In this document: one piece after another, positions 606-5,592 of the stretch
How positions within the stretch are numbered: position 1 is the first letter of the stretch
How the letters are laid out: the number at the start of each line of letters is the position of its first letter
DNA from: Flavobacteriales bacterium
Lineage (GTDB): Bacteria > Bacteroidota > Bacteroidia > Flavobacteriales_D > Sanyastnellaceae
NCBI GenBank assembly: GCA_022447625.1
Contig: JAKVAX010000013.1
Span: 1 to 64,000, forward strand
Direction: 5' to 3'
DNA length: 64,000 nucleotides
Position numbers and translations under genes: made by a program
The notes under the pieces: model-generated
Told to the model about the DNA's origin: nothing
What the model saw: the letters and a program-made list of their open reading frames with translations, nothing else
The model's database searches: none

Positions 606-3596
606 TTAGTTGGCGTAAAAGTCTTGAAAATCAACGGGAAGTATCAGTTCTACCCGCGTTCCACTAGTCTCTTTTCCTTTGTTTTTCAGTTCATACGGAC
701 CGATCAACTTTACGTCTTTACGAGTCATTTTTCGTAAAAGTTCGATGCGTCCAGTCGTAATATTCATCCCCTGGGAGATGTGATCATCGCCACGATCGTC
801 CTTGGCGGCACGACTGGTATCAATACCAATACCGTCGTCTGTAATGACAAAGGCCACTTCATCTGTGCCTTTCATGTAGATGTCAACCTCGATGTAGCCG
901 CATTCTTCCTTAGGGAGGATGCCATGCCAGATGCTGTTCTCCAAAAATGGCTGCAATAGCATGGATGGAACCTTGTTGGATTCCTGATCCACTTCATCAT
1001 CAACGTGGATCTCAAATTCAAACTTGTCTTTGAAGCGCATGTGCTCCAAGCCTAAGTACAGTTCCAATCGTTCAATCTCTTCCCGCAGACTGGTGAAATT
1101 CACCTGAGAACTGTCTAGGTTCTTTCGAATCAGCTTGGCGAAGCTGCTCAAGTACTTATTCGCCGCTAATCGGTCTTGACGGTTGATGTAATACTGAATC
1201 GAATTCAAGGCATTAAAGATGAAATGGCGATTCATACTCGAATTCAACGTCTGCTGCTCCAAAGAAAGCATCTTCGACTTATACTCGAGTTTCTCCTTTT
1301 CCATCTTCTCGATGAAGGCTTGTTTACGACGATGATAAATGAAGTATACAATGCCTGAAATGGCCAATATCTCGAGGGCTATGAACCACCAACTAAGCCA
1401 AAATGGAGGCGAGATGCTAAAGCTAAATGAAGCCGTTTCACCAGGATTTCCATACTGGTCAATGGCGCGTACCTTAAAGGTGTAATCATCGAAAGGTAGA
1501 CTCGAATAAGTTGCAAAATCTGTCTCCGTCACACCTTCCCAATCCTCCTCAATGCCCTCAAGCATGTATTGATACTTGATACCTTCCGGTTGCGACAGCG
1601 CTAAAGCATCAAAAAAGAACGAGAAATGGTCATCGTTGTGCGGCACTTCTAACGCTACTGGCCAGTCTCCATAAGCGCTAATTTCTTGTTCATACTCGTT
1701 CCAATTGGCTTTCTCTAGGTTGATGCGGATATCTGAAATGGCAATCGCCGGTGGAGTGGCCCTTGAACGATTGAGAACAAATTCTCGATCAACCACCGTA
1801 AGCGCTTGACTAGTTCCAATCCATACACGATCATCGCTCACATGAATGGCATTTTGATTCGTCTCGAGGAAACTAATTCCGTCGTGTTTACCAAGTCGAC
1901 TCCATTGGTATTCACCACCTTCAAAAAGACCAAGGAACACTCCGTCATTGGTCCCTAGCCATGCGTGTTGATCTTTATCGAAACGAATAAAGTTGACGTG
2001 GTTAGCACCGAATCCGCCTTTCAGTTTGATGGGCTTAATCTCGCCTGCGGCGGAAATCGTGCAGAGCCCACTTTCGGTTCCTACCCAAATCGTTCCGCGC
2101 TCATCTTGAGCAATACAATAGGTCGAGTTGTCTGGAAGTCCGGTTGACTCATCAAATACAGTAAACTCGGTATCATTCCAACGGAAAACACCGGCGTTAC
2201 TAGCTATCCAAAGATCGTCGCCCATTCGAACGATGCCTCTAATCCTTTTCCGTGGTACGCTTTCAATCATTTCAAATTCTCCAATAGCTAGGGAATAGCG
2301 AACGAGTCCTCTTGCGGTTCCTACCCATAGCACTCCTTCTTCTTCCAACAGACTCAAAATTCGCTTGTGTGGCAGACCGTCTTCCTCAGTGAAGGTGCGT
2401 TGGATATCGCCATTCTCATATAGACTTAATCCTCCAGAAGTTCCGAACCAGTATTGTCCGTCTAGCCCTTTTGAAGCACTCCAAACACGAGAGCTTTTAA
2501 GGCCTGTTCCAATACCATAATTGATCACCGAGTCTTCCATAATATGCGAAAGCCCGTTGTCATAGGTACCTACCCAATAGCCATTCGATTCATCCGGAAG
2601 GATGGTCATGACAATGTCGCCGGCAATGAGGTCATCGCTGTTGAAGTGCATCACCTGATCTCCGATAAACTTCAACAGTCCACTCCCGTTACTACCGAGC
2701 CAAACGTTTCCGTCTTTGTCGCACAGAATCCCGCGGATGTCAGAATTTGGAAGACCGTTGAATTCGCTGAACGCAGCTACATCAAGAACTTCTCCATTTT
2801 CATCGACATACAAGCGAGAGAATCCATCGCGAGATTTTAGCCAGAACTCACCTTCTTGACCGGGTGTGATTCCGGAAATATTTTCACTGATTAAACCATC
2901 ATTCGGACCAATAAAACGAAGTCCATTGGGAGTTCGATGCACTACACCTTGCCCTACGGTGGCAATCAATAAGCCGCCCTTCCCATCAGGATAAGCGTCC
3001 ATAATGGTGGCGTCAATGCTGTCACTAGTGAGGATGATTTTGGAGATACCGCCTTTTCCCTCCCAGTGAATGCGGTCTTTGTAAATGGTGTAAAAGTTGA
3101 CACCCAGGCCCATATCAGCGACGGTGCGTTTAGCGTGACCTTCTTCGATGAATCGATGCCATTGTCCCTTTTCAAAAGTAACGGCGCCGTCTTCGGTAGA
3201 GATGAAGAGTTTGCCATTGTCTTCTCGGATGTGGTTCACTTGAGCATCCTCCATTCCTTCTGGGAAGCGATGCGTTTCAAACGAATTTCCATTGAAAAGA
3301 CTGATTCCTCCGACCGATCCAAATACCATGAGGCTGTCACGAAATTCCGCGATAGCGTTGACCTGATTCCCGAGCAAGCCATCTTGACGTGAGAAGTTTC
3401 TAAAGCCATCACCATCGAAACGACTAACGCCTCCAAGGGTGCCAAACCAGAGGTAGCCTAGGTGGTCTTGATGAAAACAACGTACCTGTGATTGCGCCAG
3501 GCCGTCATTTGTGCTCCATTCGATGAAAGGCAGGGTTTGACCGTTTCCGCCAATGGCGAAAAGAGAAATAAAGATGAGAAATAGCAGCTTTTTCAT
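606..3596 (-). CDS. propeller/Y_Y_Y sensor histidine kinase, LytS type
   Basis: 996 residues. A signal peptide (1-19) is followed by about 600 residues of two-component-regulator propeller repeats with recurring WxGT and GL motifs, a Y_Y_Y domain (about 665-731), one membrane segment (about 732-754) and a short coiled coil. The cytoplasmic kinase is of the LytS (His_kinase) family, with phosphoacceptor His791 in an NRHFIFNALNSIQ box, then an N-box (LLQPFLENSIWHG) and a DDGIGID ATP-binding motif. It should sense a periplasmic ligand and phosphorylate the LytTR regulator encoded immediately upstream, with which it shares a 4-base ATGA overlap; the two are surely co-translated. The domain order is typical of Bacteroidota. 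The ligand cannot be deduced. Confidence 0.93.
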   Translation of the reverse strand: MKKLLFLIFISLFAIGGNGQTLPFIEWSTNDGLAQSQVRCFHQDHLGYLWFGTLGGVSRFDGDGFRNFSRQDGLLGNQVNAIAEFRDSLMVFGSVGGISLFNGNSFETHRFPEGMEDAQVNHIREDNGKLFISTEDGAVTFEKGQWHRFIEEGHAKRTVADMGLGVNFYTIYKDRIHWEGKGGISKIILTSDSIDATIMDAYPDGKGGLLIATVGQGVVHRTPNGLRFIGPNDGLISENISGITPGQEGEFWLKSRDGFSRLYVDENGEVLDVAAFSEFNGLPNSDIRGILCDKDGNVWLGSNGSGLLKFIGDQVMHFNSDDLIAGDIVMTILPDESNGYWVGTYDNGLSHIMEDSVINYGIGTGLKSSRVWSASKGLDGQYWFGTSGGLSLYENGDIQRTFTEEDGLPHKRILSLLEEEGVLWVGTARGLVRYSLAIGEFEMIESVPRKRIRGIVRMGDDLWIASNAGVFRWNDTEFTVFDESTGLPDNSTYCIAQDERGTIWVGTESGLCTISAAGEIKPIKLKGGFGANHVNFIRFDKDQHAWLGTNDGVFLGLFEGGEYQWSRLGKHDGISFLETNQNAIHVSDDRVWIGTSQALTVVDREFVLNRSRATPPAIAISDIRINLEKANWNEYEQEISAYGDWPVALEVPHNDDHFSFFFDALALSQPEGIKYQYMLEGIEEDWEGVTETDFATYSSLPFDDYTFKVRAIDQYGNPGETASFSFSISPPFWLSWWFIALEILAISGIVYFIYHRRKQAFIEKMEKEKLEYKSKMLSLEQQTLNSSMNRHFIFNALNSIQYYINRQDRLAANKYLSSFAKLIRKNLDSSQVNFTSLREEIERLELYLGLEHMRFKDKFEFEIHVDDEVDQESNKVPSMLLQPFLENSIWHGILPKEECGYIEVDIYMKGTDEVAFVITDDGIGIDTSRAAKDDRGDDHISQGMNITTGRIELLRKMTRKDVKLIGPYELKNKGKETSGTRVELILPVDFQDFYAN
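3345..3357 (-). repeat. dispersed 13-base motif, exact
   Basis: TTCCGCGATAGCG on the plus strand; sense reading in the kinase gives NAIAEF. Confidence 0.8.
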
Positions 3597-4354
3597 CCAG
3601 CGTTTACACGTTCAAGGAATACTTGCAACTTACGACGAGCAATGGGGATTTCATTGTCGTTAGAGAGGATCACAAAGCCACCTTCTTGGCGAGAATATTC
3701 TTTAAGGTGGTGAGCGATATTCACAATGTAACTGCGGTGCAGGCGGAAGAAGATACGTTTGCTCAAACGTTCTTCAAAGTACTTGATCGTTTTACTGCTC
3801 AGAATGCTTCGTCCATCAGATAAATGAACCACAGTGTATTGATCTTGGGCTTCAAGATGGGTGATGTCTTTTGAATTGAGAAAGCTCACTCCTTCAGAAT
3901 GTACGATAGGTGTACGATCTTCATCAAGTACTTCCGTAATCTTTTCCGCGATAGCGTCAACATTAACCTCAGAAGCAGAACGACCATTGACAATTTGACG
4001 AACGCGTTCAACGGCTGCTTGAAGCTCTTCGATGTTGATCGGCTTTTCGAGGTATTGCGCAGCGTTCTCCTTGTAGGCACGAAGAGCGTGCTCACCATGG
4101 GCAGTCGTGAAAATAACTTCAAAGTCACGATCGTTGAACATGTTCAAGAACCCGAAGCCGTCTTTGGCTGGCATCATCACATCAAGGAAAACGAGGTCTG
4201 GATCCAACGCTTCAACAAGGGCCTTTCCTTCGCGAGCGTCAGGAGCGGTGCCCATAATCTGAATTCCTTCGCAGAAATCCGTTACCATCATTTTGAGGTT
4301 ATCGCGAGCGTTTTGCTCATCGTCGATGATAATTGCACGAAGTATCTCCTTCAT
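3593..4354 (-). CDS. LytTR-family response regulator
   Basis: 253 residues. The receiver domain (1-125) has the acidic pair Asp11-Asp12, phosphoacceptor Asp58 in LVFLDVMMP, Thr83/Thr84 and Lys104. A LytTR DNA-binding domain fills about residues 150-253. It overlaps the sensor kinase start by 4 bases (ATGA) and is its evident partner. A direct repeat matching the LytTR binding consensus twice lies at 4415-4444, 60-90 bases upstream of this start, so the system probably controls its own operon. Intact, unlike its paralogue at 4448-5227. Confidence 0.94.
   Translation of the reverse strand: MKEILRAIIIDDEQNARDNLKMMVTDFCEGIQIMGTAPDAREGKALVEALDPDLVFLDVMMPAKDGFGFLNMFNDRDFEVIFTTAHGEHALRAYKENAAQYLEKPINIEELQAAVERVRQIVNGRSASEVNVDAIAEKITEVLDEDRTPIVHSEGVSFLNSKDITHLEAQDQYTVVHLSDGRSILSSKTIKYFEERLSKRIFFRLHRSYIVNIAHHLKEYSRQEGGFVILSNDNEIPIARRKLQVFLERVNAG
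3944..3956 (-). repeat. dispersed 13-base motif, exact
   Basis: Same form as the copy in the kinase; encodes DAIAEK in the linker of the LytTR regulator. Confidence 0.8.
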
Positions 4355-4407
4355 AATTCCCGTCTTAGTGAAAGGAAGATAAGCGGAACGAGCCGTAAAT
4401 GAGGGAG

Positions 4408-4444
4408 CAAACTAATAAACGGTAGCGTTCAGTAAACAAACGGT
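4408..4444 (-). promoter_or_regulatory. LytTR operator overlapping the regulator/kinase promoter
   Basis: On the minus strand, ACCGTTTGT (4444-4436) and ACCGTTTAT (4423-4415) form a direct repeat with a 12-base spacer. Both match all defined positions of the published LytTR site, [TA][AC][CA]GTTN[AG][TG], whose repeats are normally 12-13 bases apart. The upstream copy contains TTTG (4440-4437), a possible -33 box, 21 bases from a near-consensus -7 box TTAGTTTG (4415-4408), about 54 bases before the regulator ATG. This is the expected arrangement for an activator site. No experimental support. Confidence 0.7.
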
Positions 4445-4447
4445 AAA

Positions 4448-5227
4448 TCAGAGTGATTTCACTCGTGTCAGAAAATCTGACAGGCGAGCACGAGCGACTG
4501 GAACCTGCGAACCATCGGAGAGAACCGCAATGTGCCCGTCTGTTTTTAGGTACTCTCGGAGTTCTTGAATGTTGATTATGTGTGACTTGTGGACTCTGCA
4601 AAAGATGGCTGGATCCAACATGTCGTCATAGATTTTCATGTTCCGACTATCATAGAAAGAAACACCGTCTTTAAAGTAAAGGGTGGTGTAGGTACCATCG
4701 GCCTCTAAGCGAACGATCTCATCATCATTGACGATTCGGAATCCCTTCTGGTGATGCAGGGTGATTTTTTTCGGACGTTGGTTGGCCTTCAATGTTTCTG
4801 TGAGTGCCTTTAGGCTTTCCAAATAAGCAGGCTGGCTTGACGGTTCGGCAACGAAGGTGTGTTGGTATTCAATCAGCTTCTCAACCGCACTTCGAAGATC
4901 TTCGATATCAACAGGCTTGAGCACGTAGTGAATGGCGTTCGCATTGAAGGCCTGCACCGCATAGTCTTTGAACGCAGTCACAAAGACCACTTGGAAGTTC
5001 AGACTTGGTGCCTTCTCTAAGAAGTCGAACCCTTCGCTACCGCTTGGCATTCGGATATCAAGGAAGACAACAACAGGTTAGAATTCTTGAAGCATATCTA
5101 GGGCGTTGTTCACACCGGAAGCATAGGCTACGACCTTGATTTCAGGACAGAAATCATCAATCAGCATGCGCAGATTTTCTCTGGCATGGAACTCATCATC
5201 TACGATTAATGCTCTCAGTTGGTCCAT
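4448..5227 (-). pseudogene. second LytTR response regulator, interrupted by an in-frame TAA
   Basis: The frame from ATG 5227-5225 to the stop at 4448 has 260 codons, the normal size of a LytTR regulator. The N-terminus has the acidic pair at residues 10-11 (LIVDDE) and phosphoacceptor Asp57 in VVFLDIRMP; the LytTR domain occupies about the last 105 residues. Codon 50 (5080-5078) is TAA, placed just before the proline that precedes the Asp57 strand. Everything after it remains well conserved and the reading frame never shifts. Re-initiation at 5050 would give 200 residues lacking Asp57. Either a recent loss of function or a base-call error. It lies upstream of the other regulator/kinase pair, on the same strand. 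Confidence 0.8.
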
Positions 5228-5334
5228 TTGCTTCTTCAAGTATAAGGCCTTCGCGGCAAGAGGTCAAAAAGTGTAACCTAAACTCTGCATTCCGCGTAAA
5301 GGGAGAGACCAAACTTGAGATAACCTAACGTACT

Positions 5335-5592
5335 ATGCACTTATTCGCATTCCTCAACCGATTGAAGGTTCAGGTCAGTGATGACCAACGCTACATTGAT
5401 GTAGCCTACACTCCTGGTTCCCCAGACGCATTATATGACATTTGTGACGTGAATGGTCGTATCATAAAAACGGGCAAAATCAATCGCGATTCTATGCGCG
5501 TAGCTGTTTCAGATCTGTTGAATTCAGCTTATGTCTTCCTCGTACTAGATGGAGATCGTATCCGAACTCAGCGATTCACAATCCACCGATAG
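5335..5592 (+). CDS. small protein resembling a stand-alone secretion-tail fold
   Basis: 85 residues, no signal peptide. From about residue 35 the pattern (YDICDVNGRIIKTGKI, then an l...AYVFLVLDGD strand and a basic end) looks like the C-terminal 50 residues of Por/T9SS type A sorting domains, but there is no cargo part. It might be a cytoplasmic or orphan domain, a fragment of a lost secreted protein, or a chance similarity. Its 3' end overlaps the convergent hydrolase gene by 17 bases. Moderately confident that it is coding; function unknown. Confidence 0.5.
   Translation: MHLFAFLNRLKVQVSDDQRYIDVAYTPGSPDALYDICDVNGRIIKTGKINRDSMRVAVSDLLNSAYVFLVLDGDRIRTQRFTIHR

Follow-up and report, generated by a model that had tools for sequence, protein, structure and literature searches.

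The window, i.e., the whole analysed stretch of 64,000 nucleotides, carries on its minus strand two tandem genes for LytTR response regulators, RR-A and RR-B, followed by the gene of a sensor kinase, HK (Table 1). A paired repeat is located between the stop codon of RR-A and the start codon of RR-B. Both the receiver and the LytTR domain of RR-B scored above the cut-off. The RR-A fragment reached it with the LytTR domain; its receiver is truncated in the open reading frame and fell below the cut-off. The two regulators share about 36% identity, and the genome contains 17 LytTR domain matches. A previous interpretation of this DNA, referred to here as the sequence-only reading, had named the 253-residue regulator and the kinase as the setting of the repeat. 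Both are present, but RR-A, the second LytTR gene directly upstream, had been overlooked.

Table 1. Features at the RR-A/RR-B junction, in window positions
Feature	Positions	Strand	Remarks
HK, 996-aa Reg_prop - Y_Y_Y - His_kinase sensor kinase	606..3596	-	4-base overlap with the 3' part of RR-B
RR-B, 253-aa response regulator, receiver and LytTR domain	3593..4354	-	PF00072 E 4.6e-20, PF04397 E 1.2e-17
Predicted -7 box, TATCTTCC	4374..4381	-	begins 42 bp after the start of unit 2
TAGTTTG immediately following the last unit	4408..4414	-	a TAGTT-like element recurs there in orthologues
LytTR repeat unit 2 (promoter-proximal), ACCGTTTAT	4415..4423	-	21 bp after unit 1; kept in orthologues
LytTR repeat unit 1, ACCGTTTGT	4436..4444	-	consensus match, rarity; kept in orthologous junctions
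RR-A, upstream LytTR response-regulator gene	4448..5227	-	TAA at codon 50 (5080-5078); intact in G047

Comparison with the congeneric genome G047 revealed 42 synonymous and no nonsynonymous codon differences in RR-B, and 55 synonymous and nine nonsynonymous differences in RR-A. Five of these nine changes fall within codons 35-52, four of them being a change to T in the genome of the window. Beyond the in-frame stop codon, RR-A shows 47 synonymous and four nonsynonymous codon changes; the stop therefore probably arose recently or is an error in the sequence. The first 48 of the 93 bases of the junction, which include the array, are identical in G047, and all four differences are found in the remaining 45. 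The segment upstream of RR-A (5228-5360) showed one difference in its 133 bases, which makes it much more similar to G047 than RR-A itself, at 91% identity.

Read on the minus strand, the junction has the order TGA TTT ACCGTTTGT TTACTGAACGCT ACCGTTTAT TAGTTTGC, in which the repeat ACCGTTTGT-N12-ACCGTTTAT spans positions 4444-4415. The spacer of 12 bases gives a period of 21 bp and lies within the 11-13 bp that separate the two direct repeats of about 9 bp in LytTR-type sites. Both nonamers match every defined position of [TA][AC][CA]GTTN[AG][TG], which we take to be the LytTR consensus. LytTR sites have also been described as lacking any common consensus (PMC4847170). The looser dimer of WMCNGTT occurs once in the 64-kb window, where 0.04 occurrences are expected, which confirms the near-perfect repeat with a 12-base spacer noticed in the sequence-only reading. 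The interval proposed there, 4408-4444, contains both nonamers; it also takes in the TAGTTTG at 4414-4408, which is not part of any nonamer. The tight dimer WMCGTTTR-N12-WMCGTTTR has a single match with zero mismatches in the whole 3.9-Mb genome. Matches with up to two mismatches amount to 102 genome-wide, against 99 in the reversed control. The idea of a large regulon marked by exactly this consensus was dropped on this ground.

The conservation of the repeat was assessed at RR-B orthologues, for which 114 family genomes and the GTDB collection served as sources. Orthologous RR-A/RR-B junctions of the Flavobacteriales usually contain two or three ACCGTT-like units with a 21-bp period. The ACCGTT dimer at a spacing of 21 exceeded its shuffles (p <= 0.012) in 10 of the 13 family loci with both genes; in the G048 and G016 pairs the array takes the form of a three-unit or 42-bp variant (p about 0.1), and the G015 pair showed no ACCGTT array in this test. 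No dimer beyond shuffles was detected at the 16 loci scored as single RR-B (p >= 0.2), G004 being cut by a contig end. Among further GTDB pairs from outside the family, arrays are present in L165, L168-L172, L174, and L175 and weak in L161-L164, and no clear array was seen in L159 and L160. Upstream of RR-A, a comparable array is generally missing in the 23 cases tested, the exceptions being L054 at p 0.03 and L169, whose score was low, at p 0.01. Because the loci that were scored had also served to train the unit matrix, the array scores are partly circular; this applies less to the shuffle test of the ACCGTT dimer. The paired repeat is thus real and conserved in evolution, as a candidate site at which a LytTR-type switch protein could dock; by its sequence, it is a well-formed LytTR-type activator site. 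That such a site stands ahead of the RR-B and kinase genes, as had been suggested, is supported, since the conservation ties the repeat to the RR-B/kinase promoter.

In Flavobacterium psychrophilum, the promoter element TAnnTTTG occupies positions -12 to -5 (PMC9723704). If the TA of the predicted -7 box is placed at -12 accordingly, transcription would start near position 4369, and the units fall at about -74 to -66 and -53 to -45. When the loci are aligned on the last unit, the match to TANNTTTG peaks at offsets 41 and 42 (3.00 and 2.89), the whole profile having a mean of 1.74 and a standard deviation of 0.37. The TAnnTT box at these two offsets, taking the better of the two for each of 24 loci, reached 94, against 54.6 +/- 5.1 and a maximum of 69 in 500 shuffles; this set leaves out three loci without an array. 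In 17 of the 24 loci, TA stands at a distance of 41 or 42 bp, counted from where the last unit starts. After the array ends of L165 and L174 had been re-registered by eye and the near-copy G047 had been dropped, TANNTT was present at 40-42 in 19 of 23 loci. The array therefore has the fixed position upstream of a predicted core promoter that characterizes LytTR-type sites, with a -7-like box 41/42 bp from the last unit. No conserved TTG was observed at the expected place of the -33 element in the aligned loci. The sequence-only reading had one nonamer covering a possible -33 box; this is not supported, given the conserved distal -7 box 42 bp past the start of the last unit, which puts the array upstream of the -33 region. 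The TAGTT-like element after the last unit also stands out in the alignment (mean TANNTTTG match of 3.00 at offset 9; background 1.8 +/- 0.44); it might serve as a second promoter element in a proximal position.

The spacing between the array and the predicted -7 box is the geometry of known LytTR-activated promoters. In published LytTR operons, 9-bp repeats are mostly 12 bp apart and often lie 10 bp upstream of the -35 element (PMC6193735), which is about the same distance as for the array described here. The HdrRM/BrsRM operons of Streptococcus mutans and the LRS-like operons of Bacteroides resemble the present locus in having direct repeats of 9-11 bp with an 11-12-bp spacer, set at a short and constant distance ahead of the core promoter. 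The HdrR repeats are ACCTCTTAG-12-ACCACTTAA, and those of B. thetaiotaomicron lie upstream of TATCTTTG (both PMC6193735). However, the unit here is ACCGTT-like and often present in three copies. LRS operons consist of a LytTR protein gene and a membrane inhibitor gene, whereas two response regulators and a histidine kinase are encoded here; with a Reg_prop/Y_Y_Y/His_kinase protein as the partner, the locus is not an LRS operon. The yjiY site of the Escherichia coli BtsSR (YehUT) system, ACCGCTTAC-N12-ACCACTCAG (PMC4847170 oligonucleotide, aligned by eye), shows the same 21-bp period. BtsSR is likewise a kinase-regulator pair, of the LytS/LytTR type; it differs in its LytS 7TM sensor, in place of which a Reg_prop sensor kinase is found here. 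The repeat here has T for C at the fifth position of that site and adjoins the regulator genes themselves. A search for papers on LytTR sites of Bacteroidota yielded little besides PMC6193735. The present locus gives their LytTR regulators a defined, directly testable target architecture, made up of the unit, the 21-bp period and the 41/42-bp distance to the -7 box.

RR-A orthologues (at least 52% identity) were found in all 12 paired genomes searched. The other genomes have no RR-A orthologue, apart from a contig-end fragment in G004; what matches best there is RR-B or a different LytTR regulator, at no more than 47% identity. In the tree, A and B form separate supported groups, and the RR-B proteins from genomes without RR-A nest within B, which implies at least two secondary losses of RR-A. 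Since RR-A was not found where the RR-B promoter has no array, and by the tree has been lost secondarily there, it is the best candidate for the reader and is favoured over RR-B. The loss of the array may also be mechanical, because losing RR-A removes the adjacent junction as well. In MAG-57, where RR-A is unlinked (L176), a weak dimer (p 0.03) persists at RR-B (L158); counted by hand, its distance to a TATCTTGC is 62 bp. Searches of solved structures returned receiver domains among the matches listed and nothing useful on DNA contacts. The concrete target for a Bacteroidota LytTR regulator put forward in the sequence-only reading is thus borne out as a sequence candidate, with RR-A as the preferred reader over the 253-residue RR-B.

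We propose that a phosphorylated LytTR response regulator, most likely RR-A, binds the ACCGTT units, which at their spacing of 21 bp would share one face of the helix. Bound to the promoter-proximal unit (about -53 to -45), it would stand just upstream of RNA polymerase, where it could compensate for a promoter with a -7 box and without a conserved -33 element. RR-A would thereby switch on the second regulator, RR-B, together with its kinase, in a regulator cascade. Direct observations are the repeat and its conservation, the constant spacing to the -7-like box and the co-occurrence with RR-A; from them we infer binding, activation and RR-A as the binder. The probability that RR-A reads the array and activates the RR-B/kinase promoter is estimated at about 0.55. 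Several observations speak against the cascade. ACCGTT-type arrays occur at other promoters as well, and related genomes are rich in LytTR proteins. The pairs of G015, L159, and L160 have no clear array, several other pairs have weak ones, and RR-A contains an in-frame stop in this genome.

A positive autoregulation, with RR-B as the protein that binds the array and turns on its own operon as in the LytTR operons of S. mutans, is rather unlikely. It would agree with the location of the array upstream of RR-B and with the frequent autoregulation of LytTR operons through such repeats (PMC6193735), but RR-B orthologues without RR-A also have no array, though RR-B persists in the same clade. Paired paralogous LytTR regulators that act on the same repeats are known from Lactobacillus plantarum, where PlnC and PlnD are encoded together and the repeats are also spaced by 12 bp (PMC2714321). 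A similar arrangement, with RR-A and RR-B competing for the array or sharing it and one of them activating while the other represses, the roles reported for PlnC/PlnD, is improbable; PlnC and PlnD are 59% identical, so that the divergence between RR-A and RR-B is far greater. Here the array lies between the two genes instead of ahead of both. Least probable is that another of the LytTR proteins encoded in the genome reads the array, or that the repeat is non-functional in a strain whose RR-A is broken at codon 50, given that the array co-occurs with RR-A and that the stop, judged by the changes beyond it, is probably recent or an error.

A search with the motif and the -7 box led to arrays ahead of apparently non-coding transcripts that share GGTTAAGG and a terminator-like hairpin. 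The totals of this composite search were about equal to the reversed control; they were dropped as count evidence, and the candidates were judged by context rather than by number. The terminator stem of the small RNA shows changes on both sides at 12 of 12 pairs, and an Rfam scan of 11 sources, mostly array-preceded loci, gave no match at E <= 1. A covariance model detected the family in 110 of the 114 family genomes, with 9-11 matches in the genus of the window; elsewhere in the order, few genomes gave a match. A pattern search had suggested that the small RNA is exclusive to genomes with RR-A, which the covariance model ruled out; only the array-type promoter, not the small RNA itself, tracks RR-A. 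The motif has thus brought up a small-RNA family that is multicopy, has no Rfam entry and seems to use at least two types of promoter. The other copies appear to have different promoters, some of them sigma-54-like. Several carry an upstream TGGCA...GC element that looks sigma-54-like. Sigma-54-like promoters of the form TGGCA...TTGC, together with 5' hairpins whose stems seem to covary when judged by eye, were noted at G000:C38:11054-11113 (L304), L266, L273, L271, and others.

For the array-type promoter, 57 copies from 11 genomes with RR-A, a part of the copies of these genomes, were scored. The unit matrix was trained on RR-B junctions, and its position 5 was opened to C after ACCGCT units had been seen here. 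Eleven copies reached the score of 14.2, all with TANNTT in register; 3420 shuffled windows gave 18 such scores and no registered -7 box, a contrast that is optimistic because this change to the matrix, the threshold and the accepted offsets of 61-63 all followed inspection of the small-RNA loci. G000 (C34:120109-120171; L305, L252), G047, G048, G014, G015, G016, G028, G029, G044, G045, and G046 have one qualifying copy each. A second G016 copy (L319), which scores 14.2 after rounding and has no registered -7 box, was left uncounted. A further 46 copies were taken from covariance-model matches down to about E 0.01. The 36 of them from genomes without RR-A (G005, G009, G025, G026, G031, G039, and G040) scored at most 11.5 (L392, G025) and had no -7 box in register. 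None of the remaining ten, six from G082 and four from G001, both with RR-A, exceeded 5.6. Single copies from G007, G027, and G033, which also have no RR-A, scored no higher than 4.4. The array-type promoter is therefore found in 11 of 13 genomes with RR-A and in none of seven without it (Fisher p 0.0005, shared ancestry ignored). This link is a correlation. Within a genome, the units of the small-RNA promoter resemble those of the RR-B promoter, though not diagnostically so, and another LytTR protein could thus drive the small RNA. Only tentatively can RR-A be regarded as a dedicated switch for RR-B with its kinase and one small-RNA copy, which would be a LytTR regulator-RNA circuit in Bacteroidota. 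RNAIII of Staphylococcus aureus is a regulatory RNA. In the AgrA/P3/RNAIII system, LytTR repeats (PMC4227749) also precede the promoter of the RNA, as with the array-preceded small RNA; unlike RNAIII, the RNA here is short and belongs to a multicopy family, and the Rfam scan found no relation between them.

Further arrays were noticed in G000, G047, and G048. Three ACCG-type units are located at G000:C12:40253 (L100, L254) and are kept in G047 (L101), with TATCTTGA 40 bp past the last one by hand count; the array is near another Reg_prop kinase and LytTR gene and has no clear target gene. In G048 (C2:1030459; L099, L146), an ACCGTT dimer lies just past the stop codon of another LytTR gene, with a rhodopsin-like open reading frame close by on the opposite strand. 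An ACCGTT dimer at G047:C1:3679385 (L104, L135), where yet another LytTR gene has its 3' end, precedes a small predicted secreted protein and has diverged in G000 (L120). A conserved array with TATCTT is present at G000:C31:18860 (L247, L253) and G047:C1:390043 (L238, L255), upstream of an open reading frame that begins with MFSNKLFRGLIAVLTLWCCT and looks secreted.
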